Source of the DNA: Cloeon dipterum
Taxonomy: Eukaryota > Arthropoda > Insecta > Ephemeroptera > Baetidae
Length of the DNA stretch: 64,000 bases
Reading direction: 5' to 3'
Assembly (NCBI RefSeq): GCF_949628265.1
Contig: NC_088790.1
Span: 15,504,545 to 15,568,544, forward strand
This document shows, one piece after another, positions 2,355-62,176 of this stretch. Positions within the stretch are counted from its first letter, which is position 1; each line of letters starts with the position of its first letter. A program made the translations under genes and the position numbers. The notes below the pieces were generated by a model. It made no database searches. It saw only the letters and a list, made by a program, of their open reading frames with translations, and had not been told where the DNA came from.

Positions 2355-5300
2355 CGTCGATAATGCAGGGGCCGAACGGTATGCAGCCGCCCGTGAGTGC
2401 CATCAAGCTGGAGAACCCTGGCGGCTACTACTGCAACAGTTACACGCCGCCGGCGCCGGACCACTCGTCCATGCTGCCGACCGGTGCATATAGTAAGTGC
2501 TGTCCACTCGCCAGGGGGGGTTGGCAACGCGAGCCTCAAGTTCCGCTTGTGCCAGGTCCTATGTCACTTCCAAGAAGTTCCCAAAGCCCGGGTGAGCCGA
2601 GGAATAAGCGGCTCCGGAGGCTCAGCTCCACCGAGGAGGAGATGGAGCTGGCCGGCGCCGCCGCTTCAGGCCCCGTCCGCGACAAGAGCACGCCCGCCGA
2701 GGTCGCCTACTACGGACAGAGCCCCGCCTCCCTCTCCAGCCAAACTAGCTGGCACTCGGACGTTGACCACGGTAAATTAATTCACTCAAGATTATTTGAA
2801 CCACAGATCAATTTTTAATCCTAATTTAGCAATTCCATTTTTGACTCCGCATATTACGAATATTATCTGTAAAAACTGTAACAAATTAAGCGATTACTAA
2901 TCAAGAAGAGCTATAGAGGGGAAGGAAACTTGTGATTTATTACACAGGGCTGTGAAATTTGGATTTTTAAACTACGGTTTTGAGTGTTTCCACGAGAGAT
3001 TTAATATCGTCTGCAATTATTAAATTGACATTTACTTAAGGATGTCGTTAAGGTGGTACACAGGCGTCAACATAGCATCGTTTGGTGGAAAAATTGAAAT
3101 ATTTTTTTATAATGTCAACAACCTTTTTTTTAATTTGAGGTAATTTCTATTTCACGTGTAACATCTGAAAAAATCAGTGGAATACAATTTTTGCCAATTA
3201 AATGTTTGCAAAATTTCAGCGTGCTGGCTTAACTTTGTTATATCTGTCAATCTTTAGTTTTTTTAGATGCGTTAGGGTTGAAAGTTGCAATAATGGTTCA
3301 GGTGAAAAGTGAGAAAATCAAAATTTCACGATCGGTTTAACATGGTTAAGTGAGTTCAGAAAATAGTACCATCAGAACAGGTTAGAAATTAAGCCTTGGC
3401 GTCAGGGGAGGCTGTCTAGATAGGCACTGCAAAGTTTAATTTTTCTAGCTCGAGATATTATTTTTTGTTAACGCTGAGATTTCACCCCGATTTTCTAAAA
3501 TGGGTTTCGGTCAAAATTGATTATTTTGATACCTCTATACCACCTGAAATCAAAAAATCAAATGATATTTTGAAAATTGGGGACGATTTAAAATATCTTT
3601 TGGAAACAAACTTATTGTAACAAATTCCTCAGCCCTATAGGTTGTCATTACTTTGGCTATTCTCTCTCCTCATGTGTGTAACACGCCTCCACTCTCTCAA
3701 CTTTACTGTACATTCACTCACTTTCACTATCTGTTCTTTCGTTCCTTCAACCTGTACAAACTCACACACCACACCAGGTCTCTTTTCTATAATTATATTT
3801 TTTGTTCTTGTGAAACACCAGGCAGCTGCGCATACGAATCACTTTAGTCGAGAGCACCAGACAATTATGTGTAAAAAATAATGTTTTAAGATATAAGCAC
3901 ACACAACCTATGTCTTCTATTCGCACACACAATTGATTTGTCTTCTTAATTTTGCCACAGGGTAAGTCGATTTGAGAATTGCACCTGATTGAAACCTTTT
4001 GTTTTTTCTGCACGTGTTTTGCCTGAACTTTTGTTTTTCACTCTTCTCTAGAGTAGCCAAGTAATGCGTTGACGACGAACAAGTAAATTATTCCAACTAA
4101 AATAACGAGCGGTGATTTTTTGCTAATATATCCGCAAAGAAAAAGCCGGAGCGAGAGATGCGGGGTCAGAGCGTTGCTGGAGATTGTTTGTGTGTGTGCT
4201 GGTTTGCAGGCTCCTCTGTTCACTCGCCGCACGCGCTGGTCGCCAAGGTAAATAAGCAGGAGCCGGGCGGCTTTCAGGGCGGCAGCAACCCCTCCTCGTC
4301 CGCCTTTGGCAGGGCGAACCACCACCACCACCACAACTCTCCACCCCACCCCTCTAGTCACGCCGCCGCCTCCACAGCCCCCGCAAACAGCCCTCGCCAA
4401 GGTAGGTCCGCCCCAAAAGCCCAATGAAAGATGGCTGGCTGCTCGAAACAAAGAGCAACGAATTGGCCAATTGGGAAAGTGTTAAGTGCTCAGAGCCACC
4501 AAGAGTTGGCGCTACCGTTAATTTACGATTTTCGAGTACTTATTACATTGTGATTTCAGATGCTACCCTTTGGCTTAAAAATATTTTGTTAGAAAAATAA
4601 TTTTGCAAAGAAAAATATTTTTTCTGTCGTATCTACTGGCTATTGACTCAACCAATGTTGGTTCCCAGCACGTCAGATGAATCCTTTTTCGCCGAGAATG
4701 CACAGTGGCCTAAAAATAGTAAATAAATGGTGGCTACAGCTGTTGGTAGCTTTGAACACTAGGGATACTTTCCCGACCGGCGAATGAATGAAAAATATTT
4801 TGGGCTCTTTGGGATCAGCACAATTAGTTTAGGTAACTTTTGAAATGCTTTAGGAGCTACTTAGCTGCTCTTATAATAGACTTAAATTAGAAGAAAAAGG
4901 AAAATCTACAAATATTGGGTGAAAGATAAAGTTCGCGTAGATGAGATGATCCAAGACGTTTGACGTCACAAGCTAAAGAACTGTAAAATACATATATTAA
5001 TTCAAACAAGGAACTAAAAGAGTGAATCGGTTTTGTGACTCTTCTTTTTCAGTAGATTTCTGAGAAAGCAGTACAGAATAAATAAATTTAAAAAAATCAC
5101 TTGATTAGATAAAGGTTAGTTTCATTTCACCCTTTTTGCAGATTTTTAATAATCTAATTGGTCGTCCTTCTGCCCTTCAGACCATTTTCTCTTAAGATAA
5201 GATTCAGATCGTAGAGAGTCTGCGTTTTAATTTACTTCTGGTGTGCTATCCATTTGTAAAGTGAAACCTAGCAATTAGTAATGCCTATACTAACATCTGA

Positions 5301-43447: not shown

Positions 43448-46400
43448 ATGGCCGGTCGTTTGTTGCTCATTCTCTTTGGCACCAGGTACATATTTTTTAG
43501 ACTTTTTTTAAAACCTTAGACGCCCTTCTGCTTGCAGTTCGATCCTAATTTTTGTGAGAGCAGCAATCCTAGATTTTGATCTCTTGCTTGACCACCCTGA
43601 AGATAGTAGTTTAGATTATGCGTTAGTAAGCGCAGACAATCGAAGCAGAGACGGGAAAAGGACGCCCTACGGTGGACACGGAAGCTATGGTAGCTACGGA
43701 GGAGGTAATTTATTGGAAAATTAAGGTGATGACGATCTACTATTTTTTCTAAAAATTTGCTAAGAATATCGTTATCGTTTCATCGTAAAATCTAATTTCT
43801 ATGTGATTTTCAATAAATTTGTAACCTTTATATTCTCAAAAAATGGGTAAAGTCAGTTTATTTCTATTATTTATTTACTCGCTGCTTACATTTCAATTTA
43901 TAAATTCAAAATCAACCTCTATTCTAGGCTAATTTACTATCTTTTCTTCATCACGCATTTCCACGATCACATTTGACATAATCTACCGGCAAAAAGAATT
44001 ATTTCGTCAAGTTTTTTGTTGAATTTTAAGAGAAAATACGATTGATTGACGAAAGTTTAAATTGTGTCACTATGATCTTCAATATTTTTCATAGTCAGTG
44101 GTTGAACAGAGTTTGAGCAAAATAGTAAAAAGACCAACCCTATTTAATGGGTTGCAAATGTTCAATTATTACTCTTTGAGCTAAAAGGGATTTTCCTCAA
44201 TTCATCATTTAACAGATATTAATAATCAAGTTTATGAAGGTTTCAGACTTGAATCAATTATAGATTAAATGCGGCTTGAAAGTGTTTCATCGTTCCCATT
44301 GAATATACAGTATAGATTTCCCTAAAAAATTCAACCGTCTGAAATTCATGATCCTATACTCTTTGCTATTTTTAAAGTTACATCAAAATTTAGTTACTTC
44401 TCATAATATAAAAAATTGGAAGGTGTCCAGATTTATTCTAAAAATTTTCTTGTGTTCTTCACCAACAGCCATAAAAGTTTTGTTGGTTTTATTGTTTTTG
44501 GTTCTATCGTGGAGAAGTCAATCATTCTAGGTACTTCCGTATGCCTTTCCTTGCAAAATAAAAAAAATTAAAACGCCTTCAATTGTATTTTAAATCTTAT
44601 TTTAAGAGTGCGCAAAAACCTTTTTTCCGAAAAAACAACTGCATTCCAAAATACTCTTTTTATTTTCAGCATTTGCCCTCACTATCCCGAATAAATATTG
44701 TTTCTTTTTTTTGTCAAATCAGGGTATCAAAGGTATCGGCCGTACTATCCGCGTCCGCACTACACGACAGAGTCGCCGACGCCGCCACCACCACCCTTGG
44801 AGTGCGGCACTGGACCCTTTGACGGAGGTGCACCACTCACCTGCATGCTCAGGACGGAGTGTATTGCTCAGGGTGGCAGACTCGGCGAGCCGTGCGGAAA
44901 AGGTTTCAGCCGAGGATTTTGCTGCCAATGTAATCAAGATTATTTATGAATCACGACGAGTTTGATTTTATTCATCAATTTTAGACCCGAACGTCATTCC
45001 CTGCGGACAGACAACCTCTTTGGTCCACTCCATCATACGCAACCCTGACTACCCTGACTCGACTTCTAACCCCATCGTTTGTGTCGTTGGGATAGTCCCC
45101 AGACCGGAGGCATGTGGCATTAGGTAAATACGGAGATTAATAATTCTATATATTATATATTCAATAAGATTTTCAAAAGATTAAAATACATGTTTTTATT
45201 AATTTTTAATTTTAACAAATATAATAGAAGTGAAGCTTGTTGAAACAGAAAGTAACATTTTATTTTTTAGTTTGATTTTCCAGCCAGGACTTACTCTCCA
45301 AGAGTTTTCAAAGAAAATATATATTAATTTCGGCAAAACGCAAGACCAAAAATACTGAATTTTAAAAAACGTATTTTATTACAGTTAAAAGAAATTTTCA
45401 ATTTTTTAACTTTCCTATTTCAAAAAGTGGCACAAAATTTAATACAAATTTATAGGATCGAGTTTATGGATGCAAAAATGGGGCCGACAAGAGATGGCTA
45501 TTGCTACCAAGACATGCTGACGGTCGCGGGTGGCGGATCAGTCGAGTCCAACGGTTTCAATACTCAAATCTGCGGTTTGGCCAAGGGATACGCAAGTAAT
45601 ACTCGCCGATTGTTTTCCCAAATCTGGAAAATAGATACATATATACCTACACAGCTATGATTCCGGTGAACCAAACGAGTGACATGGTCCAGATCGTCAT
45701 TTTCGGCCAGAGCAGGGATATTATGTGGAACATAAACGTCACTCAAGTGCACTGCGGATCACTTTATCTTCCATGTAAGTCTCTTTAAAAATTAATCAAT
45801 TATATAGGACAATTTACAAAAAGACTAACCAGCGATTTCTCCCAATAATTTCTCAGAAACCTTTAACAGCACTTTAAAAAATCTCACGTTCCCAATTGAG
45901 TTCCAGGCCGCTTTTTAGCTGCCGTTTTCGCATTTTGGATCATTTAATTACATCATATTATTTACTCGTTAAAAAATAACCCAAAGTCTCAAACCTTTCC
46001 ATTTGCACATGTTAGAGGTTCTAAGAGGAAATTAAAATATATCTGTTGTAAGGTAAAAATTGGAATATGAAATATCAGTCTGTGGAAATAAATCGGTAAG
46101 TAAAAAAACATCTAACCCTGATTTCCGATTTTCAGTCAACGATCTGTGCGGCGTGCGAAATAGTCCCGTCGCCCACAACGCAAGGAGTTTGAAAACTTTC
46201 CCGAGCACACCGCGAAATATGTCTGCTAAGGTGATCACAGAAAAGGCCGAGCCTACTCCGGTAGTGGTGGAAAAGGTCAAACCAGCACCTAAGTTGGCGG
46301 CCAAGGGCGTCGAGGATAGGTGGAGCAATACCACCATCGCCGAAGCCAAAATCCTCGGGGGAGCAGCGGTCGGTGGCATCCAATATCCGTGGATGGCGGC

Positions 46401-48813
46401 AATTTTCTATGACGGAAGCCACATTTGCAGCGGGACTATAATTGCCAGGCAGTGGGTGATGACGGCGGCCCACTGCGTCACCTTTTAGTAAGAACTTTGA
46501 ATGAAAAAATAATATATGTGTTTTCCTTCCTATAATATAGCATATTATGCTCATTCCGTTGGGATATGACACTAAAAGTTGGAGAGGGTCAATCTAGCGT
46601 TGACTGCCACTAGGAAGGAGATCAACCAAACACATGTCCTTTTTTCAAAAATCCAAAAATTGTTCAACTTATAGAAGAGCACTAGGTTTTTTTATAATGC
46701 GCTTTTTGCTTTACATTCGATTGTCATGGATTCCAAAATTGCAAAATGAACAAACTCAACACCATTTGAAAGCTAATTAAGAGGACTATAGGGCAACAAA
46801 TAGACAATAAGAGTCATCGTCAAAGGACTAAAATTATGCCGAATTCCTGAAATCACCGTCAAATAACGGAGACCCAAGATTTTTCTTACGCAGCAGTGCA
46901 AATAAAAAATGTTTCAAACTCGATTTTATAAGGGCTGAGAATTTCAAACTGTTGAATATTTTTATTTTTATGCACCGTAACAGTAGCCTTAAAAATTGTG
47001 AAAAATTGAGTTATTCGGATCCTTTAAAAAACTTTAAGAATGAATCATGTACTCGAATGAATGAACTTAAAACCCATATAAATCAGCAAAGAAGCCATCC
47101 AAAGACGACCATATATATTTTGCTCTAAACAAAAAAGTCCCGAAACCGTTCTGAAATTACTTTCTTCTACAACTATACATTGGATTTTTTTGCAAATAAA
47201 AACCGGTAGTGACATGAGTTTAAATAGGTTTCCTCTATGCTATTTTTAATGAGTAGTAGTGATAAAGTCCAAAATGTGTGTGTGTAATTTCTTTAAAAGT
47301 AATTTAATTATAAACATCAATTCACTTTCAGCGCTGCGGACAACCTTTTCCCGGTCAAACGGATCCGCGTTTGGTTGGGTGCCTACGACCTCACCCTGAC
47401 GCCGCGTCAAGAAATCAGGAGAGTTATCAGGAGAGTGGACCGCGCGTACATCCATAACGAGTTCGAGGGCAACAATTACGACGTGGCCATCCTAAAGCTC
47501 AACGAGACCCTGATTTACAACGCGGCGATTAGGCCAGTCTGTTTCCCTGAAGACATAGGTAAAACGAATAAAATACCTCCAAATAATTACTTGCATTTTC
47601 ACCCGAATTTAACAAAAAAAAAATTAATTTTAAATGAAAATCGAAGAATAGATATCAACATGACTGAACCTATAGAAGAGCATTATTCTTCCTTTCCTTG
47701 TGAACAATTAATTAAATTATTGGCCGTAGCTGCTATTAGAACACAAAAACACTAGAGTGCTTGAGTTTTAGTTTGCGGTTTAGAAGACGTTATTACCAAC
47801 TTCAAAAACAATTGATATGAGAGATTACTATATTCATGGGTCGGTGAAACATTTTAAAAGTCAAATTCCTCGACTATAGTAACGCATATTTTAATATTTA
47901 ATTAAACACCGTTACTGAGTTTGTCAAAAAGAAATAATATGTAATAAGGGGATCAAAAAGCTTGCCACTCTAGGTGGTGAAAAGGCAGCAGATAAAATAA
48001 CGAATCACAGCTACGTATGCCTTGCAGAGGGAAGAAAGTCATTTTGTCACCCTTTCTTCGTGGTCTAATCTGTCCCTTAGAAAAACATATTGCAACCTTG
48101 CATAATTTTCAGATCAAACTTACGCTACTTGGACTGGCATCATCGCCGGCTGGGGCACGAATGGCGGCGCCGCCAAGAGCAACGTCCTATTGGCGGGCAA
48201 CGTGCCCATCTGGCGAAACACGGCTTGCGTGACCGCATGGAGTGCTCAGAGTGTGGAAATAAAGGACAGTATGATCTGCGCGGGCGACGGCTCGGTGGCC
48301 CAGTGCACGGTTGGTATCTTTTTTATTAGTTTATTCGTTAAAACAAACAAAAATTACAAGGAACTAAAAAAACAAATTTTTGCATCAGACGTTCATAATT
48401 TCATGAAATTAGAGAGAAATCATAGGCCTATCTCGGTAATGTGGTATTTATACATGTTGATCTTTAAAATTGGGGTAATTATTGTTGTCTGATCATATGC
48501 ATCACAAAAGTTACACATTTGGTGCAAAATATTGTTTTTTATTCTATTTTAGTAGGTATGCCGGATTTTCGTGTGAACGAAACAAAATGTGTTGCAGGGT
48601 GACAGTGGCGGGCCCTTGATTGCGGCCGATGAGGATGGTTTGTACTCATTCCTCGGCATCTCATCCTTTTCGGCGCCGCCCGCCTGCGGAAACCCTGACT
48701 TCCCCGACGTTTACATGCGCACCAGCAGCTTCCTCAGCTGGATCGCCCTCGTGCTGGCCCTGCCTGCGCCCCCCGACGAGTTCGAAAGCCCCTACGGACC
48801 CTACGATCCCTGA
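43448..48813 (+). CDS. Secreted CUB-domain S1 serine protease (zymogen)
   Basis: Ten exons join to 600 residues: 43448-43485, 43538-43704, 44723-44929, 44985-45123, 45456-45595, 45655-45774, 46136-46487, 47332-47558, 48113-48309 and 48598-48813. A signal peptide (MAGRLLLILFGTSSILIFVRA) leads into a Gly/Tyr/Pro-rich linker. A cysteine cluster ending RGFCCQ (to about residue 137) resembles the disulfide module before CUB in insect proteases. A CUB domain follows (about 140-268, NPDYPDSTSN to NVTQVHC), then a Lys/Pro/Val-rich linker. The S1 catalytic domain is predicted to be activated by cleavage after Lys342 (EAK|ILGG). The triad is present: His383 (TAAHC), Asp438 (NNYDVAIL) and Ser532 (GDSGGP). 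Six residues before the serine, the S1-pocket position 189 is Ala (VAQCTGDS), not the Asp of trypsins, so substrate preference should differ. The start ATG at 43448 is preferred over 43440 because only it gives a signal peptide and correct phase. It probably acts extracellularly in haemolymph cascades or digestion; the role is not shown. Confidence 0.92.
46488..47331 (+). other. Introns of the CUB protease longer than 300 bp
   Basis: Introns 43705-44722, 45124-45455, 45775-46135, 46488-47331, 47559-48112 and 48310-48597 are AT-rich. I saw no element or exon in them. The stated range is the largest one after the first. Confidence 0.5.
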
Positions 48814-50189: not shown

Positions 50190-50839
50190 ATGAAGCTAGT
50201 GCTAATTTATTTCTTCTTCTTTTGCGGGCTCACTGTCCAGCAAGCACGCGGCCATCCTGGTGCAAATAATCAACTTAATCCCAACAATGACGTTCTTGAC
50301 CACTTAAAATCAATAATAACTGATGCGGAACAGCTCGGCAACATGACCTTAGCAAGGTACACCACAAATAAAGGTAAAGAATAATTTAAATATGTTAAAA
50401 ATATGTTTAGTGATATGTCCTCGGTATAGCTGACAAACACGAAGAATTCCTGGAAGCGCTCGCCAAGCATGAGAAAAGATGCTTGTCTAGCGACGGACCC
50501 ACTCAAATAATCCATCCAGATCACAAACCCAAAAAAATTGAGTTGACATGCCGATTGTACGCGCTGACCGTGCGCATCTCGAAACAATTCACCAAAAGCG
50601 AGCTTTTCGATCGCTTCGTGAAGGGTGGACTCAGTTTCGGACTGATGATCGTGTCCTATTCGGCCTCGTTATTTTCCGGGGTGCCACAATGCGATCAAAA
50701 TACTTTGTGCACTATGTTGGCCAAATCACTCACATTGGCGGCCAAGGATTTCGTCAACAACCCTCAATTGGATGGCGTAAGCAAGGTGATGGCACAGGCC
50801 ATCAGGATGATAGTCGACCTTGTTCCTGAGAAGATTTGA
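50190..50839 (+). CDS. Small secreted protein, C-x5-C family member 1
   Basis: Two coding exons (50190-50373 and 50430-50839, phase-1 intron of 56 bp) encode 197 residues. A signal peptide (MKLVLIYFFFFCGLTVQQARG) is followed by a polar segment with sequon NMT. A helical body runs EEFLEALAKHEKRC, then FTKSELFDRFVKGGLSFGLM, then VPQCDQNTLC, and ends VDLVPEKI. It shares with the genes at 51695 and 62176 the acceptor abutting the ATG, a single phase-1 intron after the spacer, a Cys about 14 residues into exon 2, and the C-x5-C pair. I do not recognise the family. It is inferred to be an extracellular protein, perhaps defensive or glandular; nothing shows which. Confidence 0.8.
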
Positions 50840-50899
50840 ACATGTCCTTGACGTAATTAAAATGTTTCATCTTACTTGTAGCTTATATACGATTAAAAA

Positions 50900-50905
50900 A
50901 ATAAA
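50900..50905 (+). terminator. Poly(A) signal AATAAA, secreted member 1
   Basis: Hexamer about 60 bp after the stop. Confidence 0.5.
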
Positions 50906-51258
50906 ATGCAAAGTTAATTGAAGTTATTTAATTTAGTTTAATTAGTATCTAATCTGATGATGATCAAATTATGCCTCTTTTTTCTACCACGGAAATTATT
51001 TTAAGTCACACTTTTTTCGTGCTCTTACTGGCAAAAAATAGAATAAATTTAATATAATTTTGTTTGAGTTTGAGAAAATATGCATATATGAGCTATTATT
51101 CATACAAGGAGAACAAACTAATTGAACCGAAAAAAAATATTTTTCTTAGTAACATTATACAGAGTTTTAAATAAGATGAAAATGTGCTAAACTATCGAAT
51201 TGAAGCGAAAAAACACATTTTTTCGGGTTAATAGGTACGTCCCCCCTTGACAGAGCCC

Positions 51259-51265
51259 TATATAA
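51259..51265 (+). promoter_or_regulatory. TATA box (TATATAA) upstream of secreted member 2
   Basis: CCTATATAAC lies about 430 bp before the ATG at 51695. As the ATG directly follows an acceptor (TTTCAG, 51688-51693), a leader exon near 51290 spliced to 51694 would fit. The strong TATA box suggests regulated, high-level expression, which is inference. Confidence 0.35.
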
Positions 51266-51694
51266 CAGCGGAGAAGCTCTTTTACTAGAAAAATTAAGAA
51301 AAACTGTTTCGTTTTTAAATTTCTAAAAAAGTAGTAGTTAGCTATACTGATCGTACTATTATTTACTAACTTGTATAGTTAAAAATTAAGAAAAATAACA
51401 AATAATTTTAACTTATCCTAAAAGCTATATAAATTGTTCAATCCAATACATTTCAATATTTCGCAATTTTATAATAATATTATCCATATCATTTTAACAA
51501 CAGACGTGAATACTATAACAAATTAAAACCATGCCCCTCTCTAACTATTAAAAACTTAAGCCATTGGCTTGGTTCTTCATTTAAAGTAAAACACTAGCTG
51601 TTTACGCTTCGTTCCATACGAGCGACAAAACTTTTAAGTGAGCTTAAGTCTATTTAATTTTATTAATATTTCCCTAAAATAATTCAATTTCAGA

Positions 51695-53026
51695 ATGCAG
51701 ATACCCGTATTTTTCGTCGTTTGCGGGTTCGTGGCCCATCTAACTGGCGCTGATATTGCTTATGAAAATTACAACGATCGCGATCCAAAAAACGATCCTT
51801 TTGCAGACACCGATTGGGAGCCGATACCCGATTCTGAAACGGAATTGAAAGTGCTGGTTAAGGACACGCAAAAGCTTGTCAGAGCAACTTTTGACAGGTA
51901 CAACAACCAGAAAGGTAATATACTTTTCATTTTGCCAACAGAATTAGAATTGTAAATCAAAACGGTATTACAAGCATAATTTTTTTCAACAGAGAGGGTT
52001 TACACAATATTCCGTTCGGGTTTTAAAAAAATATGCTTTGTTTTCTAGACAATAGACATTTCCTCTATTTTTTACTCTTATCATTAGCGAATTACTAATT
52101 AGTTTTTCTTGCATTTCTTAGGACTTGAAATCACTCATCCAAACATTGAAAAATGTTCTCAATAATATTTATTAATTCAGTAATTGATAAGATTAGTATT
52201 TGCAGATGGATTATTAAAAATAGGACAATTTTGTTGTTAAGCTGGAAATATATTTAATAACATTTTTAGAAACACACAGTTGCAAAATAAACGTGCTAGT
52301 TTTAAAACATGAGTGTGCTTTGTACCTGATAATAATAAAACAAAACAAAACAAAAATGTTCTCATTTTGGTATTTGACTTCTGTCAGGGTTTAACCTGAC
52401 GATATCGTCAGGTAAAACCCTGACAACTTCAAAAAATAAGATTGGGCAATTTTTATGGAAACCAAAAGAAACCTCATAAGAACAATAAGTAGGGCTGCAT
52501 GATTCGCTATTTAAATCCAGATTTCTGGTAGTTTGATCTCATTTAATTTTTGCCTCGTTTATATTTGTTAATCAATCCCAAAATTAACCTTTTCACAGGA
52601 GACATTCACGATGACTTCATGGAAATGCTTGCAAGCTACGCGACGTGCAAACCTCAAGAAGGAAACCCCGCGCTCATCACACCCAACAAGACATTATACG
52701 AAAACAACCCTCCGATGCAGCAATACGAGATTCCTCGCCGCCTCTTCAGAATGGCCATGGCATTCGTGAAAAACTTCACCAAGACCAGACTCTTCCACAA
52801 TTTCGTAAAAGGAGGGCTGGAATTTAGTTTGGAAGTCGCGGCATTCTCGGCGCCGTTGTTGGCTAAGGTGCCCGAATGCGCTCAAAGTCCTATGTGCACA
52901 TTGACGGCCAAAGGGATCGAAGGGTCAGCTAAGGGGATCCTCGAAAGCAATGACCTTGATTTTTACGCAGAATTTGTTGCTGAAACCATTAATTGGTTGT
53001 TGCATGGAATAACATACGATCAATAA
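51695..53026 (+). CDS. Small secreted protein, C-x5-C family member 2
   Basis: Two coding exons (51695-51914 and 52599-53026, phase-1 intron) encode 215 residues. The signal peptide is MQIPVFFVVCGFVAHLTGA; then comes an acidic spacer (DPFADTDWEPIPDSETE). Exon 2 parallels member 1: DDFMEMLASYATC, FTKTRLFHNFVKGGLEFSLE, VPECAQSPMC. The FVKGGL and VP-x-C-x5-C blocks are nearly superimposable, so the two are tandem duplicates. Sequons NKT and NFT are present. The intron (684 bp) carries the 44-bp palindromic insertion at 52377-52430, absent from member 1. Function unknown. Confidence 0.82.
52377..52430. repeat. 44-bp palindrome flanked by 5-bp direct repeats
   Basis: Positions 52382-52425 form two 22-bp arms with one mismatch and no spacer (arm begins TGTCAGGGTTT, centre GATATC). 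Identical ACTTC pentamers lie directly on each side (52377-52381 and 52426-52430). The form matches that at 24924-24971: bare inverted-repeat arms joined head to head inside a target duplication. Confidence 0.65.
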
Positions 53027-53054
53027 TTTATATCTCCATAGAATACAAATTTTG

Positions 53055-53060
53055 AATAAA
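53055..53060 (+). terminator. Poly(A) signal AATAAA, secreted member 2
   Basis: Hexamer 29 bp after the stop. Confidence 0.55.
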
Positions 53061-54136
53061 AATCATTCTTCGTCGTAAAATTATATTATTTGTTTTATTC
53101 TTTTTAAGAAGATTAATTTTGTTCATAAATGTTTATTTGCTAAAAATTTACTTGCGTTTTGATTTCTGCATATTACTGTGTTGAAAATTAGTGTTTTTCA
53201 GCTGTTGAGTTAGACATTAATACTTAATTGTTTTGATTTTTCCTTCCAATTCCTCATAAATGGAATAAATGGATAAGTAATGATGATGGCATTTGAGTCA
53301 AGCATGTTGCAGTCTAGGAAGTAAATCAAGAACAATAACCTTTTATAGTAGATAATTGAAATGTATGTAGTTGCCGGGTAGGAGATAGGAAAGAACTGCT
53401 CTGTCCGACTGCTAGATATAGACTGTATATAGTATACGTATTCGCGGGTATCGTGCATGTGATTGAATATGACATGATGGCCCGCATCCCTCCCCCGCCC
53501 CCTCGGGACGTATTTTACTGCTACGATGATGACCGATGACCCCGCTGATTGTCACCCAGCAGATCTCGTCAAAATGTGTTCGACTACGTCGCGTTGTTAA
53601 ATTCTGGAATGATTCTACCTGCGACTATGTCACTGGTTGTGTCTGTGCTCAAATGATTGATTTGACAATTGTGAGAATAAACAACCAAATTGTATTAGCC
53701 TGTTCCATGCTTTAACTTAGCTTTTAGGAGTTGCCATTATCGTCGTAAAATCAGTAGAATTATCCATTAGCTTTTTGAAATTTTAATAAGCCGATCTATT
53801 TAATTTGATAGAGCAATACATTTTCTCTTGATACTTTTATTGAGAAGGGTTCTAGAATGAACACAAAATCTACTTCGTCGCGCACCTTACATTTTATTGA
53901 AAAAGGATTGAAATACAGGCATAAATAATTGTACTGGGCGCTGCCACACAGCGAATTGAAAATTATTTTGACAAATGGTTGGATGCAGTTGATCGATACA
54001 GAATGTGTTTACAATTTGCATTAATAAAATTTTTATGACTATAGTGCTTCACCTCATTGTAACGAGTAATTGTAATCACTCGTTGAATTTGTTATTTTCT
54101 TATCTTTTGACTCTGGCGGGCGGGAACAAAGGGGGA
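53061..54136. other. Intergenic DNA, nothing firm
   Basis: AT-rich except for a GC-richer patch near 53470-53620. That patch encodes only a 22-codon plus-strand frame (MMARIPPPPPRDVFYCYDDDR) and has no splice context. Confidence 0.3.
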
Positions 54137-54293
54137 TCACGGGCGGCCGCCGCTACCATATTTTCCGGTGCCATCTGTAATAAAATGAATAAATCATGTA
54201 TTAACGATTCCAAATTTTTTAGATGATCCCTTACCGAGTGGTGGCGGACGAACATAATTTCCCGCGCTTAATACCAGTGCTTTCCCCATCCGA
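54137..54293 (-). CDS. Possible 3' end of a small peptide-precursor gene
   Basis: Two minus-strand exons fit splice rules: 54293-54235 (acceptor ATTGCAG, donor GTAAGG) and 54174-54137 (acceptor ATTACAG, ends TGA), with a 60-bp intron. Joined in the consistent phase they read MGKALVLSAGNYVRPPPL then DGTGKYGSGGRP and stop. A Gly/Pro/Arg-rich C-terminus of this kind recalls short secreted immune-induced peptides. An upstream exon with a signal peptide is required, because the first exon begins mid-codon, and I did not find it. This could be chance. Confidence 0.3.
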
Positions 54294-55670
54294 CTGCAAT
54301 AAATGAAAACAAAAATTAATAAATGGATTTGAGTTGAGCAAATTTCTCGCTTGATTTATCATTTATGTCTGTCAAATTTAAACGATCGACTATTTTTATA
54401 TTAATATTTGCCCAAATTGATCAACATCATATATGTGATGGTAAAGAAATAATGAAGACCGATAAATTCAAATGAAGAATTTTGTTGATGAATGGTATGC
54501 AGATGAAATTCGATCGCACACAAATTCAATACTAAAACTTAAATTATTTACTTTATAATTGACCAATAGGACCTTTTCATCACCCCTTTCCTTATTTGCA
54601 TATTGTATTTGGAAGACAAAATACATAAAATTTTAGTAATGCATTGTTCATTTCCATTTAACAAGGGTAAATATACAAATATTTGCGCGCCTTTAGTTGT
54701 CTTTTATATTGATTTAAGTAATTTAGGGACATCTATTAACTGTTATCCATAATCAACTCTTCCGCAAAACAAGTCGTAAAACTTGCCGGCGCGTCATCTG
54801 TACAATGGATCTATAATATATTATTTATAGTGTGTTGCAACTTTGTTATTGACGGTTATATTATTACGTTATTAGTGGAGTGACTTGATTCTTTGCATCA
54901 ATGAATTTAAAAATGCCGTGACACTCTTCGGCCTGATCAGCCCAACGCAAACAGAGCAAATTTTATTTATAAAAACGGTAATTCTTGGGTAGCGGTCGGC
55001 GGCCGCTCGCAGCAACTTGGGGCAGATCAGGCTGACAATGGACTATGGAGTGAACAGAAAGCAAAAACGCTACAATCTAAGTAGGGCTGTTGTCGTGACA
55101 TGACTCGGTCTGATCAGGCAGATCAGGCTGAGTCCCGAGTCATGTCACGACAGCTGTGAAATTTAGACGATCGCCTAAGTATTTTTTCTGAGCTTTAAAT
55201 TATTGTGGAACCATCTACCGAGGACAAATCGTGTAAATTTAGGTCATTTAAACCAAACTTAAAATTGTCTAAATCTTAAAAAAATAAATATAAATAAATA
55301 AATTAATTATATTGTAAAATAAAAACCGTCTTGAAAAAACCGTATTTTTTCTTTCATCATTATGCCACGACAATTTAAAAATTATCAAACAACATGAAAT
55401 AAAACTGAACTGAGAAATGTTGATCATTGCAATAGAAGAACATCGCTCTTAAACTTGAGACAAATTTTATCCAAACAAATCTACTGATTAGCTCAGATGA
55501 AAACTTGTACTCTTATATATATACCTTTGCACGCGAAACTTGGAAGTGCTTTATTTCCGATGAATTTGCGGCCAACACAGTGCTGAGACCTTCAAGTATC
55601 CTATTATGTCCTCCACAGGGAAGACGCGTTGTTTTATATAGAGAGGTGCCCGCCCCGATTTCCCCTTCCG
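54294..55670. other. Intergenic DNA with TGATCAGGC-type repeated motifs
   Basis: AT-rich. Three blocks contain variants of CTGATCAGGC or CAGATCAGGCTGA, near 54930-54943, 55023-55035 and 55109-55130. The last lies inside the loop of the hairpin at 55091-55152. No gene recognised. Confidence 0.35.
55091..55152. repeat. Hairpin with 18-bp perfect arms
   Basis: Left arm 55091-55108 (TGTCGTGACATGACTCGG) is the exact reverse complement of 55135-55152, around a 26-bp spacer that itself contains two GATCAGGC motifs. It may be a folded-back MITE or Helitron-like end; no target duplication was found. Confidence 0.7.
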
Positions 55671-57000
55671 CTAGAGCGTTCATCGGGAGCGGGAATTAAT
55701 GGGACTCCCGGATTTGCTCGTCTCTCCGGGTACCGCGGGAGCCTCCTTCGTTGATCGGGAGCGGGACAGGAAAGTATTGGGAGTGTAAAGTCAAACCCAA
55801 TCGGGACTGACGGAAAGCTCAAAAATCGATTTTTTTAGATTTATTTTAAATTAATTTTATGTTTATTGAATTTATTATATCACTGTTTTTTAGTTCTGTT
55901 TTGCTATAATAATGATTTCTCGCTGCGAAAGCAAAAATAAAAATTATGATGCACGATATTTGGCACGCTTACGTGAGTGTTATGTTCCACAAAGCGGTGG
56001 AGGGTGTTCCTTGTGTCCTTCTTTATGGAGGGACAAAAGGAAACCTACTTGCATTTTCCAGGGATTTCACCAAAATTTACAATAGCTAGGAAATCATCTG
56101 TAATTCAAACCAATTTAATCCGTATATGGTTCATATTATTTATCGTATTATAAAAAAGTGCCTATTTTATTAATATTATGTATTATTTTCTGACTTTTGA
56201 AATTTTGGTTTAATGCGCTGGATGCTAAATAGCTATCTTGTAATTATAATAGTAGCAGCGATTTGAAAATAAAATAGTTCAACTTGCACACAGCAAGCCT
56301 GTAAAACAAGCTGCATAACATCTTTTAAGAAACTTGCCAAGGTGCGCTATTTTGTATAAAAATTTTGTTTACTTTATAATCACCCTATTTTATTAAGTGC
56401 ATGCTATTTGAAAAGACCGGGAGTGCACCCATGAAATTGAGAACTGGGACAAGACCGGGAGCGAGTGTTCACCAAATCTCGGGAGGCGGGTCAAAACCGG
56501 GAGTAATTTTTTTTTTTTTTTTGCTCTTTTTTATCCCTGTCCGAGGACCGGGAAGGGCGCGCACTGCACTGGCACGAATGCTGAAACCCGGGTCCCAATA
56601 ACACCGCGAACGGATAACATGGGCGCACCAGGCCGCACAGGGACCCAGCCCACTGTAGTGCCACTTGCCTCCGCACCGAGGACTGCATTGAAACGCTAGA
56701 CATTCGTCCCGTGAAGCCAAATCACGCATGCTGGAAAGGTGCAAACCAGCAAGTAGCGAGTCGGCGCCGGTGCGCCTCCCAGCCCGTTGAGCAATTTGAG
56801 CATTTCGAGTCACCAAACTAACCACTTTTTGCCATCTCTGACATTGGGTAGCCAGTATTAGATCTCCAAACTGCTCAAATACCTCCCATTGCTTTGACAC
56901 TCCTGAGAGTGCCTTAACAATGCGAGCCAACGGGCTGGTTATAATAATGCGGGACAGGACAGGAGCGGGAGTAGATTTGCTCTCCCGATGAACGCTCTAG
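55671..57000. mobile_element. 1.33-kb terminal-inverted-repeat DNA element (non-autonomous)
   Basis: The ends are 19-bp perfect inverted repeats (CTAGAGCGTTCATCGGGAG at 55671-55689, its complement at 56982-57000). Taking the TA inside CTAG as the target duplication would fit Tc1/mariner-like or other TA-inserting elements; longer flanks do not match. Subterminal copies of CGGGAGCGGGA-like motifs recur at both ends. An internal GC-rich 460-bp segment is open on the minus strand (56930-56469) with protein-like wording (KQWEVFEQFGDLI, AGLHLSSMRDLASRDE). I do not recognise it as a transposase, so it may be captured sequence. A T17 tract lies at about 56506-56522. Confidence 0.6.
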
Positions 57001-57472
57001 TTTGAGATATGGGAAGAAAGAAAATTCTGGTGAAATTAGGAGTATGGATGAATATTATTTTTAAATTATATAATATTTTTAAGCAAAAGCAAAAATGTCA
57101 ACATGTATTTTTTTAAATATAAAATATATTTATAACAGAATATGATCAGGTACACTAGTACATACAGTATGAGTATAGGGAAGCGTTTTACAAAGGGGGG
57201 GGGGCACAATATTCAATAATTAAATGACCGCTGGTTTCACTACGTCAATTCAGAACGACGGCCCACGTATACGAGTTAAATTTATATAGAAAGTCTTTAC
57301 GGTTTCATGTGTTTTAAAAATATTTGGAATTTTTATCGACTTTCAAGATTTCCAGAAATTGATGCACATTACGTCATTTTATGAATCATATAATTTATAA
57401 CCGGGTAGGTGTATCTGTGTGTTTTCTGAACGTGTGTTAATACATTCACCAAAAATAAAGTGATCTTATGGC
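57001..57472. other. Short AT-rich gap between two elements
   Basis: Contains a G-run near 57197-57206 and no recognisable feature. It ends with the left target-duplication copy (57465-57472) of the hAT-like element. Confidence 0.4.
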
Positions 57473-58780
57473 TAAGGGATGTGCAAAAAAGTCGATTTGG
57501 CAAAGAAATAATCGATTATTACAGTCGGAAATTTAGAGGCAAATAATCGGTTTCTAGGCTAATAATCTATCAAATAATCGGTTTCATATGTGGTTTCCTG
57601 TTCCTGTAGTTGAAAAATCTATAATTTAATCGGTATTATGTTTCATCCTTTTCTTTTACTTTTGGCGAACAATTTTTTTTAAATCAATTAAGAATATCAA
57701 AATTTATAAAATTTTACCGAAAACCAATTTTAATTTTTATAACAATCTTAGCTCTTGTGGAATGTTTGAAAAGTGTTTAGTTTAGACAGCTAAAATTTAA
57801 TCCAAGTCACAGTGATAGGTCAAATACATTAAAAAGATCAGTGGTTGAGTGAAAGTTAAAAAGTGGAACTTAAACAGTCCGATAATGATTAAAAATATTT
57901 TTGCATCGTTGGCTTTAGCAAGTTTTTCTTCCTATTTATTGTTTTTTAATTATGCAGCAATGAACTTCTACAATGAGCAATAATGAAATCAGGTCTTTCA
58001 AGCAGTTATAGTTCAGGTTTTGCCAAATTGCTCGAAAAATTAAAAATTAACTTAAATTTTCGCTTGATTTTGACCTTTTTGTCGTGATCAGTCCAATTAA
58101 TGGTGTGTGATTCATGATTCATGAGCTAAATTTCTCTTCTTGTGAAATAAATCATGATTTCCAATAAAGTGAAAGAACTGGCAATATGAATAGCCGATTT
58201 TCTTGCACATTGAAACGGCAACCCGGCAAAATTCAAGCATTTCTCAAATTTCAGGTAAAGTTTAAAAGGATTTTCTCTCTTTTTCTGTAGAGATGTTCTA
58301 TAATTAACAACAACTTTTTGTACCTGGTTACCTCATGCGATCCTTACAAATTATTACATTCCAAATCAATCATTGCTCACGTAACATTATTGCTAAAAGA
58401 TAAAAAAATTAAATATCAAACAATTAGCTATAAAAGCAATTATACTTTAATGAACAATTGTTGAAAAATTAACAGTTTTTTAACATTCCCTTACTAAATT
58501 GGCTTTGCCAACTTCTCTGCTGCTTAAAACATTGTTGCACGTTCGCAGATTGCGCGGTTTTCGGCAAAATATAGTGGAAAATAACACCCCTTTTTAAGAA
58601 ATCAGACAATAATCGCTTTTTTATGGGAGAGATAATCGAAAAATAGTCGTTTTGGATGCAATAATCGATTTTGAAAATCTGTCAAAATGCTTAAAAATTG
58701 ATGATTCGTACTCATTTGATAGTCCCGACATCATAGAGGCAAAAGAAAAAATAGTCGATTATCGGCTTTGCACAACCCTA
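57473..58780. mobile_element. hAT-like non-autonomous transposon, 1308 bp, intact ends and TSD
   Basis: The left end TAAGGGATGTGCAAA and the complemented right end TAGGGTTGTGCAAA form imperfect hAT-type terminal repeats (TAGGGTTGTGC class), continued inward by further similar sequence. An exact 8-bp duplication CTTATGGC flanks it (57465-57472 and 58781-58788). There is no transposase frame, so it depends on an autonomous relative. Subterminal zones are filled with variants of AATAATCGATTATT and AATAATCGGTTTC, probable transposase-binding repeats. Confidence 0.85.
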
Positions 58781-58788
58781 CTTATGGC

Positions 58789-58970
58789 GCTTTTGTGTGG
58801 CGGTGCACCTTGCCTTTGTTGACATGGAACGCAGCAGCGAGCTCATTCAGCGCAATCGCAACAGGTTGGCGCTCAACAATCCTGCACCTGCTGTTTTGCT
58901 GCCACAGCCACTCAACCAGCACCCCCCCCCCCCCCAATCCACCAGCAGCACCCCCAAAATCTCTTTATAG
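58789..58970 (+). pseudogene. Coding-like fragment next to the hAT insertion
   Basis: A GC-rich frame immediately right of the element reads MERSSELIQRNRNRLALNNP, then a proline run, and stops at 58968-58970. A 14-base C homopolymer (58922-58935) encodes the prolines. The frame also extends leftward to the insertion point, as if the element interrupted a gene or an already dead copy. Family unknown. Confidence 0.25.
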
Positions 58971-60464
58971 ACAATAAATATTTGCATCTATTTTTTGTAT
59001 TTTATGAACATAATGCGTGGATCACTATTTGAAATATTGAAAGTAACAGACAGTCTGTGTTTGGAGCAATTTTCCGCTCTGAATCAAACTTAAAAGAGTA
59101 TTTTTAGTTAAATAAGCAATCATAACGAGAAAGTAGTTTATATACAAAATTCAGGAAATTATTTGTCAGAGGGGGGTAACTACTCGAGTACGGGGTCCCC
59201 GAGCGCCCCTGAAAGGGACACGCAATTCTTTTAATAAGGAGTGCTATTAATGAAGGAGATATTCCGATATTCCTCTGTGAAAGAAAAGAACGAGAGATCC
59301 CTATACCACCCGTGTTAAATTTAATAACATTTTTACATTGTAAGATCGTTTAATAAGATTATTTTCAACACTCAATATGAACTTCATGTGTAAAAAGTGA
59401 AGGGTTTTTTCCATAAATTAGAGATTCTAACATCACATCAGAATTAATAGCTATCACAATTATTTTAAGAACCGGTTTTAGGATTGACATTCGGCAGTTT
59501 TGGCTTTATATATGAGCTGTACAGCGGAGAAAACCTACGAAAAAGACACCAAGTTCAATGAAATTCGAAATTTTCGAAATATTGTATCTCAGGGTGACGT
59601 CAGGAATTTTGCTGTTAGCAGGTAGTCCTCCGATATCTGAAGATCTATATCCTTAATTTCACAAGCACGTCAATAACATCCCGCAATCTAATAATAGATT
59701 TTGTATTTTTTTTCAGGGAGATGAGCAAAGGATGGCATTAGAATCAATGTGGCAAAATAGTAAACATTTTCTGTTGTAAACATGTTGTTTACTCGATCCT
59801 ATTCTAATGCATCTGCTCAAGAATTAAATAATTGTGCAACCTTGTCTGGCAGGTGGTTGAAAACCTGTTTGCGATTGTGACGAAATCACAATGACAGCTT
59901 ATACTTATCTACTCAACTCCACTTATCGTATAATGGTTATTGTAAATTTAATAGTGGTCACTATATAATCTGAATTTAACCCCCGTCAATACTTTTAAAT
60001 TTTACAACGATGTTTTTTCGAAACAGTGAAGCAACAAGCTTATTTGCAAAAGTTTAATAAGACGAATCGAAAAACCGACTCGGTACCCTGAAAAAGGTAG
60101 TTAGTTTTTTCACTTCCATTGTAGGTTGCCGCAGTATGGGATTTTGTTTTAAAAACTTAAAGAATTGTTCATGTAGACGTTTGATACCGAAATATAATAA
60201 CTGACCACCAACTAACTAGACCACCACAAAAAAAGTGAGACTGCCAGATAAAGATTCTCTTTAACTTATTTAACTTTGCCATCCGCGTCCAAATTTTTAA
60301 AATAAGTATTTTTTTTCAGAAAAAAACATGAGTATTTTTGTCTAAGATTCACTTTATTGAAAATATTATTAAAGTTTATCTGGTTGAAATTTAAAAATCA
60401 GTAAAATAATTATTATTCAAATTCTTTAATATTTTAAAAACAAATTGTCATAATCAGGTGTAAA
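58971..60464. other. Intergenic AT-rich DNA
   Basis: Nothing recognisable apart from the minus-strand poly(A) signal (AATAAA on the minus strand, plus 60353-60358) of the gene that ends at 60465. Confidence 0.4.
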
Positions 60465-62176
60465 TCAAATAGGAATTCCGACCATGCTTGCTAGCATTTG
60501 GATGATTTTGATGGTGATTACGATAATGATGTTCAAAAGGATAGGGTTGGCGAGTACGTAGCCGCTGGCGTAGACGAAAATACTGGCTAGGATTGGGCAG
60601 AGCGGCGTGGCTATGCAAACCGGCGTCACCAGCAGCGCCGAGCCGAGAATGAAGACGGCTGCCAGGGCCAGGGTGACACCGACCCTGACTACAAGCCTGA
60701 GGGTCACCTTCTTGAGCGCTGGCAGCACAATCTTCATGAAAATTGGCCTCACCACTTTCTTGATCATAGGCCCCAGAATCACGATAATGCTCTTCACCGA
60801 TTGCACGAGGTCGCGAAATTTGGTCCGCGTGTCCTCCGTCTTCGTCAGCTCCTTCGGCCCGGGTAGAGCAGAAACAATGTCCTTTTCAGGGCGGACTCCA
60901 TCGGCAGGATTTTCGGGCAGGCACAGGTAAGAATCGGCAAACGCGTTCAGATACCAATCAAACTCACTGACTGTTAAAAAAATTAAAATATAAATTGTCG
61001 TTTTTCACGAAAGATTTGATATTGCCTGAAATTACCGAGATTACATAAATATGGCAACTCTATCCTAGATTATTTTTCTTTAGGGTAGTATAGATGAAGG
61101 TGTTGAAATAATCGAGGTCGACGGGAAATTTCCGGAAAACTGGGATGAAATTTGGCTAATATCTCGAGCTCTAAGGAAAACAACTATGTACTAAAAGGTG
61201 TCTATTCAGACAGCCTTCACATCTTTTAAATTATAGTAATTTTTAATGTTAGAAGTTGGAGTAAATTTTAAATTAATGGTTGACGAAATTTCTCGGGAAA
61301 ATTATTTTTTCTAAGAGTTAAATGTTGTGCACATTCACCGGAAATTGGACGAGATAACTGGCATATCAGGGCGTTTCGTGAGCACCCTGATGGCTTTCAA
61401 AAGGTCAAACTGCATATAATATTATTATTATTCCTCTTCACTTGGACGGCGTGCAGATCTTACACAGATCGCCCAAAGCGCGGCATCGGTAAAATGGCTA
61501 TTATATATGGGAATTGAATGATGAGGGCTACCCTGACACCAGAGTTCGATTCCCTGCCTGTTCTGATAGTCTTGTCTGGCCTCAGGGATGACCCCAATAG
61601 TATTTTCCGCAAGTAAAAAACAACCAACCGTGCAACTTTGATTTTTCACATTATTCGCCTGAAATTTGCCGCACCCTGAACATTCTCTGGCATACTTCAT
61701 TCGCTCAGAGCAACATTTTCATCCCATACCTCTAGATCCAGATATTACAATACAAATTAGTTTATACAAGTTTGTTTTATGCTCTGGTTATTTAAACTAT
61801 ATGATTTAACTATTAATTAGTATGGAATTATTATCGCTGATTTAAAGTTTTTTGGAATTAATTAAGGGGTCGATGGTGAGGGTACAAAAAACATACACAC
61901 AAACCAGGATATTATAGTACTACTGTAATGCTATGATTAAAATTTAAAAAATTCAAAACGATCCGATAACAAATCTATTATAGAATTTTTCGATAGGTGA
62001 TCCTGCCAAGAGTAAAAAATAATTATAACAATGGTAAATATTTTGGGGTTTATATTTCCAAACTTACGGTAACAGACTTCATCTTTTCTGCATTCATAAG
62101 ACTCCAGGTTCCGAAGGTCGGCAACAGTTTTCTGGGTTGCCAACCCGCAGAGGAACAAAAGAAAAACAAAACGCAT
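60465..62176 (-). CDS. Small secreted protein, C-x5-C family member 3, hydrophobic C-terminus
   Basis: Minus strand, two coding exons: 62176-62068 and 60970-60465 (stop TGA), with a phase-1 intron of 1.1 kb (donor GTAAGT, acceptor TTTAACAG), encoding 204 residues. The signal peptide is MRFVFLLFLCGLATQKTVA, followed by a short Cys-containing spacer (ECRKDEVCYR). Exon 2 begins SEFDWYLNAFADSYLCLPEN, aligning with the EEFLEALAKHEKRC and DDFMEMLASYATC starts of members 1 and 2. The C-x5-C pair is TPVCIATPLC. The acceptor again lies just before the ATG. Unlike its relatives, the last ~100 residues are strongly hydrophobic (VGVTLALAAVFILGSALLV, ILLNIIIVITIKIIQMLAS) with a lysine-rich stretch before them, so it may insert in membranes; that is inference. 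Confidence 0.72.
61440..61600. repeat. Possible tRNA-derived SINE remnant
   Basis: Inside the intron of member 3, GAGTTCGATTCCCTGCC (about 61538-61554) matches a pol III B box. A degenerate A-box-like GATCGCCCAAAGCG lies about 75 bp upstream. No tail repeat or target duplication was verified. Confidence 0.25.

Follow-up and report, generated by a model that had tools for sequence, protein, structure and literature searches.

Sequence evidence for a locally clustered family of small, putatively secreted helical proteins in Cloeon dipterum

What are the three small secreted-type genes between positions 50190 and 62176 of a 64,000-nucleotide stretch of Cloeon dipterum DNA (Insecta, Ephemeroptera; NCBI RefSeq assembly GCF_949628265.1, contig NC_088790.1, 15,504,545 to 15,568,544 of the forward strand; hereafter the window), and do they belong together? 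Our analysis suggests, with a probability of about 0.5, that they are part of a family of small secreted proteins which is restricted to one lineage, has duplicated locally, and is built on a stapled helical scaffold whose surface changes fast. We name the genes of the window m1, m2 and m3, and further loci on the same chromosome m4, m5, m6 and m7 (given in C5 coordinates). Homology is established at the level of sequence for m1, m2 and m4, and less strongly for m3.

The reading frames are seen directly in the DNA. An earlier note on this stretch had proposed three two-exon models of 197, 215 and 204 residues, and these are borne out, as coordinates, strands, GT/AG sites and phase-1 introns are exact in all three (window coordinates):

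50190..50373, plus strand: m1 exon 1, signal peptide (MKLVLIYFFFFCGLTVQQARG) then spacer; AG 1 base 5' of the ATG
50374..50429, plus strand: m1 phase-1 intron, 56 bases, GT..AG
50430..50839, plus strand: m1 exon 2, predicted four-helix domain; Cys 79, 102, 149 and 155
about 50684-50710, plus strand: m1 P-x-C-x5-C, inside exon 2
51695..51914, plus strand: m2 exon 1, signal peptide then long acidic spacer; AG 1 base 5' of the ATG
51915..52598, plus strand: m2 phase-1 intron, 684 bases, GT..AG
52599..53026, plus strand: m2 exon 2, domain homologous to that of m1; Cys 90, 167 and 173
about 52871-52897, plus strand: m2 P-x-C-x5-C, inside exon 2
62068..62176, minus strand: m3 exon 1, signal peptide (MRFVFLLFLCGLATQKTVA) then short spacer with its own C-x5-C
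60971..62067, minus strand: m3 phase-1 intron, 1097 bases, GT..AG
60465..60970, minus strand: m3 exon 2, the most hydrophobic of the members
about 60597-60623, minus strand: m3 P-x-C-x5-C, inside exon 2

The acceptor that the note had placed next to each start codon is likewise present: in m1 and m2 its AG ends 1 base short of the ATG, and in m3 (start context TTTTTAGAG-ATG) the distance is 0 or 2 bases. P-x-C-x5-C occurs in all three genes, as VPQC (m1), VPEC (m2) and TPVC (m3), and FTK-x-x-LF-x-x-FVKGGL is found in both m1 and m2, as described. The cysteine said to lie 14-17 residues into exon 2 fares less well: it stands 17, 16 and 16 residues past the split codon of m1, m2 and m3, but is missing from m4 and m6, and therefore does not define the family.

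Kinship was judged from single-sequence queries against the whole genome (190 Mb, 10 contigs) and from profile searches over 6,519 open reading frames (ORFs) of 264 kb; a five-member profile was run over 304 kb. The m1 query returned m2 at 35% identity (E 5.8e-18) and, weakly, a third place on the same chromosome (E 0.49) that turned out to be the m4 gene; m2 returned m1, m4 returned m1 weakly (E 0.28), and the consensus of m1, m2 and m4 returned those three only. Among the ORFs, the m1/m2/m4 profile gave m3 as its first new match (E 0.0023, 16.6 bits) and m6 as its second (E 0.086, 11.7 bits), each score being reached by 0 of 5,000 shuffles; the m1-m2 profile gave 22.0 bits for m4 and 10.5 bits for m3 (0 of 5,000 shuffles each), and 5.2 bits for m6 (17 of 5,000). 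A profile of exon 1 from m1, m2 and m4 matched m3 at 0 of 3,000 shuffles and m6 weakly (35 of 3,000), and the pairwise E values, computed within the set of five sequences only, were 1.4e-5 for m3-m4 and 0.007 for m3-m6. The shuffles, which lose helical periodicity, count for less than the ORF ranking and the exon-1 test. The proposal that m1, m2 and m3 form one family is supported by the exon-2 tests and, for m3, by exon 1 as well; by these comparisons m3 very probably belongs to the family, and m6 probably does.

The count of three members is consequently too low, at least five (m1, m2, m3, m4 and m6) being found. The loci outside the window are:

C5:15379841-15379709, minus strand: m4 exon 1, followed by a phase-1 intron with GT/AG ends
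C5:15378322-15377949, minus strand: m4 exon 2
C5:15582963-15583481, about 16 kb beyond m3: m6, an ORF and the second new profile match
C5:15380500-15380676 (L018, about 6132-5956), minus strand: m5, on the strand of m4 and about 0.7 kb upstream of it
C5:15387894-15388019 (L019, 3350-3475), minus strand: m7, a candidate, short frame LCQEIENCELLAKSIFSFYARNFI

The m4 gene, a minus-strand gene some 175 kb upstream of m1, encodes 168 residues with P-V-C-x5-C, and its closest CAG acceptor lies 57 bases 5' of the ATG. The m6 gene has a single coding exon of 150 residues, begins with MRFVLLLVLCVLAQQVSG directly behind an AG, and carries T-A-C-x7-C where the others have P-x-C-x5-C; both m3 and m6 begin with MRFV and a hydrophobic stretch, and in both an AG adjoins the start. 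One phase-1 coding intron is present in four of the five members (m1-m4) and absent from m6, P-x-C-x5-C is present in four of five, and a signal-peptide-like start in all five. Along the chromosome the order is m4 (minus) with m5, then the m1-m2 tandem, the inverted m3, and m6, about 205 kb in total. The 59-residue stretch of m5 looks like the C-terminal half of a family member; no first half was seen, and it is probably a remnant. The 42-residue frame of m7 is similar to the part of m1 that holds the C-x5-C turn and the third helix; no exon to support it was seen, and it is kept as a candidate. A further match of the five-member profile, at C5:15558741-15558899 (E 0.1), showed no family features by eye and was set aside. 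A shared promoter or leader sequence was considered and rejected: when the 600 bases 5' of the five genes were compared, the filter left just two 10-mers in common.

What is conserved between the members can be read from m1 and m2, whose exon 2 sequences align over 134 codons: 44 residues are identical, 22 of them encoded by different codons, and identity by codon position is 0.45/0.70/0.44. The second codon position sets residue polarity; these values suggest that it is the protein, and chiefly its polarity pattern, that is kept.

Secretion is predicted. The secreted-type starts proposed for m1-m3 are supported by hydrophobicity and author-assumed cleavage sites, no dedicated predictor being used, and all five members have a hydrophobic start with a small residue at -1 of the assumed site; judged in this way, the members are in all likelihood secreted. 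With the same assumed sites, mature net charge is +2 (m1), -10 (m2), +4 (m3), -6 (m4) and +1 (m6), a range that suggests no common electrostatic target, and mature cysteines number 4, 3, 5, 2 and 2, respectively.

The fold of m1 is likewise predicted. The model of its exon 2 contains helices at 34-54, 57-82, 85-88, 91-109 and 112-129, with block means of the predicted local distance difference test (pLDDT) of 83-92 over residues 41-130. Unrelated predicted folds had been named in advance as a sign against kinship; the m1 and m3 models, which drew on the same five sequences, do not differ in this way, and both set the cysteine pair between two longer helices on each side, the m3 model being poor. 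A compact helical domain with this cysteine staple is likely; a saposin-like arrangement of its helices is a tentative reading that we would not favor.

We picture the family as follows: each gene start would encode a signal peptide and a variable spacer, the spacer being removed or flexible; a compact all-helical (four-helix) domain would follow, which a hydrophobic core and a local cysteine staple would hold together; and P-x-C-x5-C (C-x7-C in m6) would make the turn between the second and third helices, its two cysteines probably bonding to each other and so stapling the turn. With the hydrophobic pattern kept and most other residues drifting, the most likely role of the domain is that of a stable extracellular scaffold with a surface free to change. 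The job of such a scaffold would most likely be the extracellular binding of a partner molecule or lipid, and the site of action may be saliva, gut, haemolymph or reproductive tract.

Several observations weigh against this reading. The shuffles hold composition and not helical periodicity, so that unrelated amphipathic helices could beat them too; m3 as a lone whole-genome query matches itself only, and m6 matches itself and one chance place. The m6 gene is the weakest member: its profile match spans about the last 40 residues at an E value above the inclusion threshold, and it lacks the intron, has C-x7-C, and gives the weak exon-1 and m1-m2 profile results noted above. The nearness of m3 and m6 partly reflects the area searched, since the profile covered only local DNA, and clustering is thus no independent argument for these two; diverged members outside the profile-searched area would be missed. 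The m3 model has the same helix order as m1 at low confidence (mean pLDDT 54.8). The 19-residue hydropathy peaks of m3 (2.53) and m4 (1.87) exceed 1.6, the usual threshold for a membrane helix, and these two proteins may, from their sequences, be located in or touch membranes. The codon-usage scores of the five coding stretches reach only the 67th-93rd percentile of 249 other ORFs of at least 100 residues, and codon usage alone thus fails to mark the frames as genes.

The place matched by the m6 query, on C4 (E 4.64), is antisense to a long frame and was rejected as a chance match; that frame presumably encodes an RNA-binding protein.

From these points it could be argued that only m1, m2 and m4 are related, and that m3 and m6 are helical secreted proteins of other origin, whose cysteine pair matches by chance. 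The low m1-m2 profile scores, notably the shuffle result of m6, and the lone queries, which found no other member in the genome, are consistent with this, as is the motif, which is not distinctive alone: P-(0-2)-C-x5-C occurs in 11 ORFs of at least 80 residues in 264 kb, 4 of them members and 7 not. We nevertheless consider it unlikely, because m3 and m6 are the top new matches of all the ORFs ranked, both with signal-peptide-like starts, and because exon 1 of m3 matches independently and the pairwise values link m3 to m4 and m6 within the five-sequence set. The unremarkable codon usage, together with the probable remnant m5 nearby, would also suit frames that are not functional genes, being either chance ORFs or copies in decay. 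This is very improbable, since all five frames are intact and have signal-peptide-like starts, the coding splice sites are undamaged wherever an intron is present (m1-m4), and the second codon position is conserved between m1 and m2.

If the genes form a secreted family, is it a known one? The earlier note knew of none, and this stands for the members scanned, no Pfam family passing the cut-off. In Pfam, full-length m1-m3 gave two lines up to E 1, both for m1 and both below cut-off (E 0.081 and 0.22), and all five domains gave 0 families up to E 10, in a search whose filters drop most matches above E 0.1. PHROGs gave 0 families for the five domains and NCBIfam one line for one member (E 0.083), which we regard as noise; these two libraries say little on insect proteins because they cover microbes or their viruses. 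A viral origin was also considered and rejected, an IMG/VR scan with m2 exon 2 giving six pattern stretches and 0 relatives. Searches of the open-access literature listed no description of the m1-m6 family. Going by these searches, m1-m6 would be a new family, but one of a well-known type, that of small secreted proteins which lie in clusters and evolve fast.

The closest structural hint comes from saposins. The only line of the family profile against PDB sequences up to E 10 is surfactant protein B, a saposin-type chain (E 0.79), with C-x5-C in register and neither matched stretch passing alone; among the 50 rows listed for the m1 structure search, the saposin-like domain 3rfi alone has a root-mean-square deviation (rmsd) below 6 Å. 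These two lines, together with the strong hydrophobicity and net +4 of m3, would fit proteins that are membrane- or lipid-active like saposins and NK-lysin, with amphipathic helices that open and insert into lipid in defence or lipid transfer. We regard this as improbable: hhalign gave a probability of 0.8% for a permuted-saposin profile and 0.1% for the regular order (home-made profiles of 4 and 2 rows, run without a positive control); the permuted profile placed the members at ranks 27, 46, 237, 421 and 499 among 1,675 scored ORFs, and the regular one, which left m2 unscored, placed the others between 151 and 430 among 1,589; no saposin stands among the matches listed for the m3 structure search (12 chains); the mature cysteine counts depart from the six-cysteine saposin pattern, whose three disulphides are impossible in m4 and m6, with two mature cysteines each; and the range of net charge shows that a cationic character is not common to the members. 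Saposin kinship by sequence (SapB_1/SapB_2) is accordingly not supported, there being no Pfam match and only the above hhalign values from small profiles. Compared with saposin-like domains, especially the permuted plant-specific insert of aspartic proteases (3rfi, prophytepsin 1qdm), to which no sequence kinship was found, the family has a C-x5-C without a CxxC partner, an extra N-terminal helix, and no long linker between the halves, and four of the six cysteines are missing from m4 and m6.

Could the genes instead belong to a known family of secreted insect proteins, but be so diverged that sequence models miss them? Osiris proteins are clustered insect secreted proteins with an early cysteine pair and a hydrophobic stretch, for which DUF1676 is defining; m3 recalls them, but no Osiris/DUF1676 match was found in Pfam with full-length m1-m3 up to E 1 or with the five domains up to E 10. 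Aphid bicycle genes have many small coding exons, whereas the members have two (m1-m4) or one (m6). As described in PMC13041983, bicycle proteins evolve rapidly, have signal sequences and an all-helical fold reported as saposin-like, and give no sequence match to known domains; they take their name from a pair of Cys-Tyr-Cys motifs, each protein is predicted to contain between one and six such domains, and one aphid has more than 650 of the proteins. The same text reports that a domain of one solved bicycle protein has its closest counterpart in a saposin insert from plants (prophytepsin; PMC13041983). The 3rfi row of m1 is much the same, and this likeness and the shared invisibility to sequence search speak for such a kinship. 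Two Cys-Tyr-Cys motifs are impossible in m4 and m6, which have two mature cysteines in all; the criterion is not absolute, since some bicycle proteins without cysteines are reported there. Together with the exon structure and the absence of any passing Pfam match, this leads us to think a diverged known family quite unlikely. Bicycle proteins are the nearest published parallel found, i.e. fast-changing insect proteins with signal sequences and no match to known domains; the m1-m6 family differs in having one domain, one conserved cysteine pair, five members found and a different exon structure. We also attach only a slim chance to the idea that the domain is an independently evolved, circularly permuted saposin-like ("swaposin") domain cut to a single staple, which, in a winged insect of early-branching descent, would provide a scaffold whose surface can change fast, in parallel to what is reported for aphid bicycle proteins.

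Our work adds a family unrecognised by the libraries searched, found from one window, and shows that small secreted families can be traced via gene anatomy and weak profiles. If the saposin-like reading is true, secreted families of insects that are not related to each other would have arrived at the same scaffold, and this would inform which folds tolerate rapid surface change.

The surroundings of the cluster contain other genes and repeats. A trypsin-family serine protease, with three frames matched, lies directly upstream of m1 on the same strand (window 46057-48492), and frames near m4, named from their sequence, are presumably carboxylesterase-like. No Rfam match and no tRNA was found in the window. 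Neither an exact (TTAGG)5 nor a (TTACTTGGG)3 array, the latter being the Trichogramma-type motif according to PMC8977481, is present anywhere in the genome; there are few matches to odorant-receptor (at least 5) and odorant-binding-protein (1, against 191 published genes) sequences. By eye, similar non-family sequence stands at window 56469-56996, between m2 and m3, and inverted near m6 (L032, about 3320-3560), probably a dispersed repeat. On the minus strand, C5:15473489-15473848 and 15474258-15474617 hold near-identical 120-residue frames about 0.8 kb apart, which are probably a recent tandem duplication.

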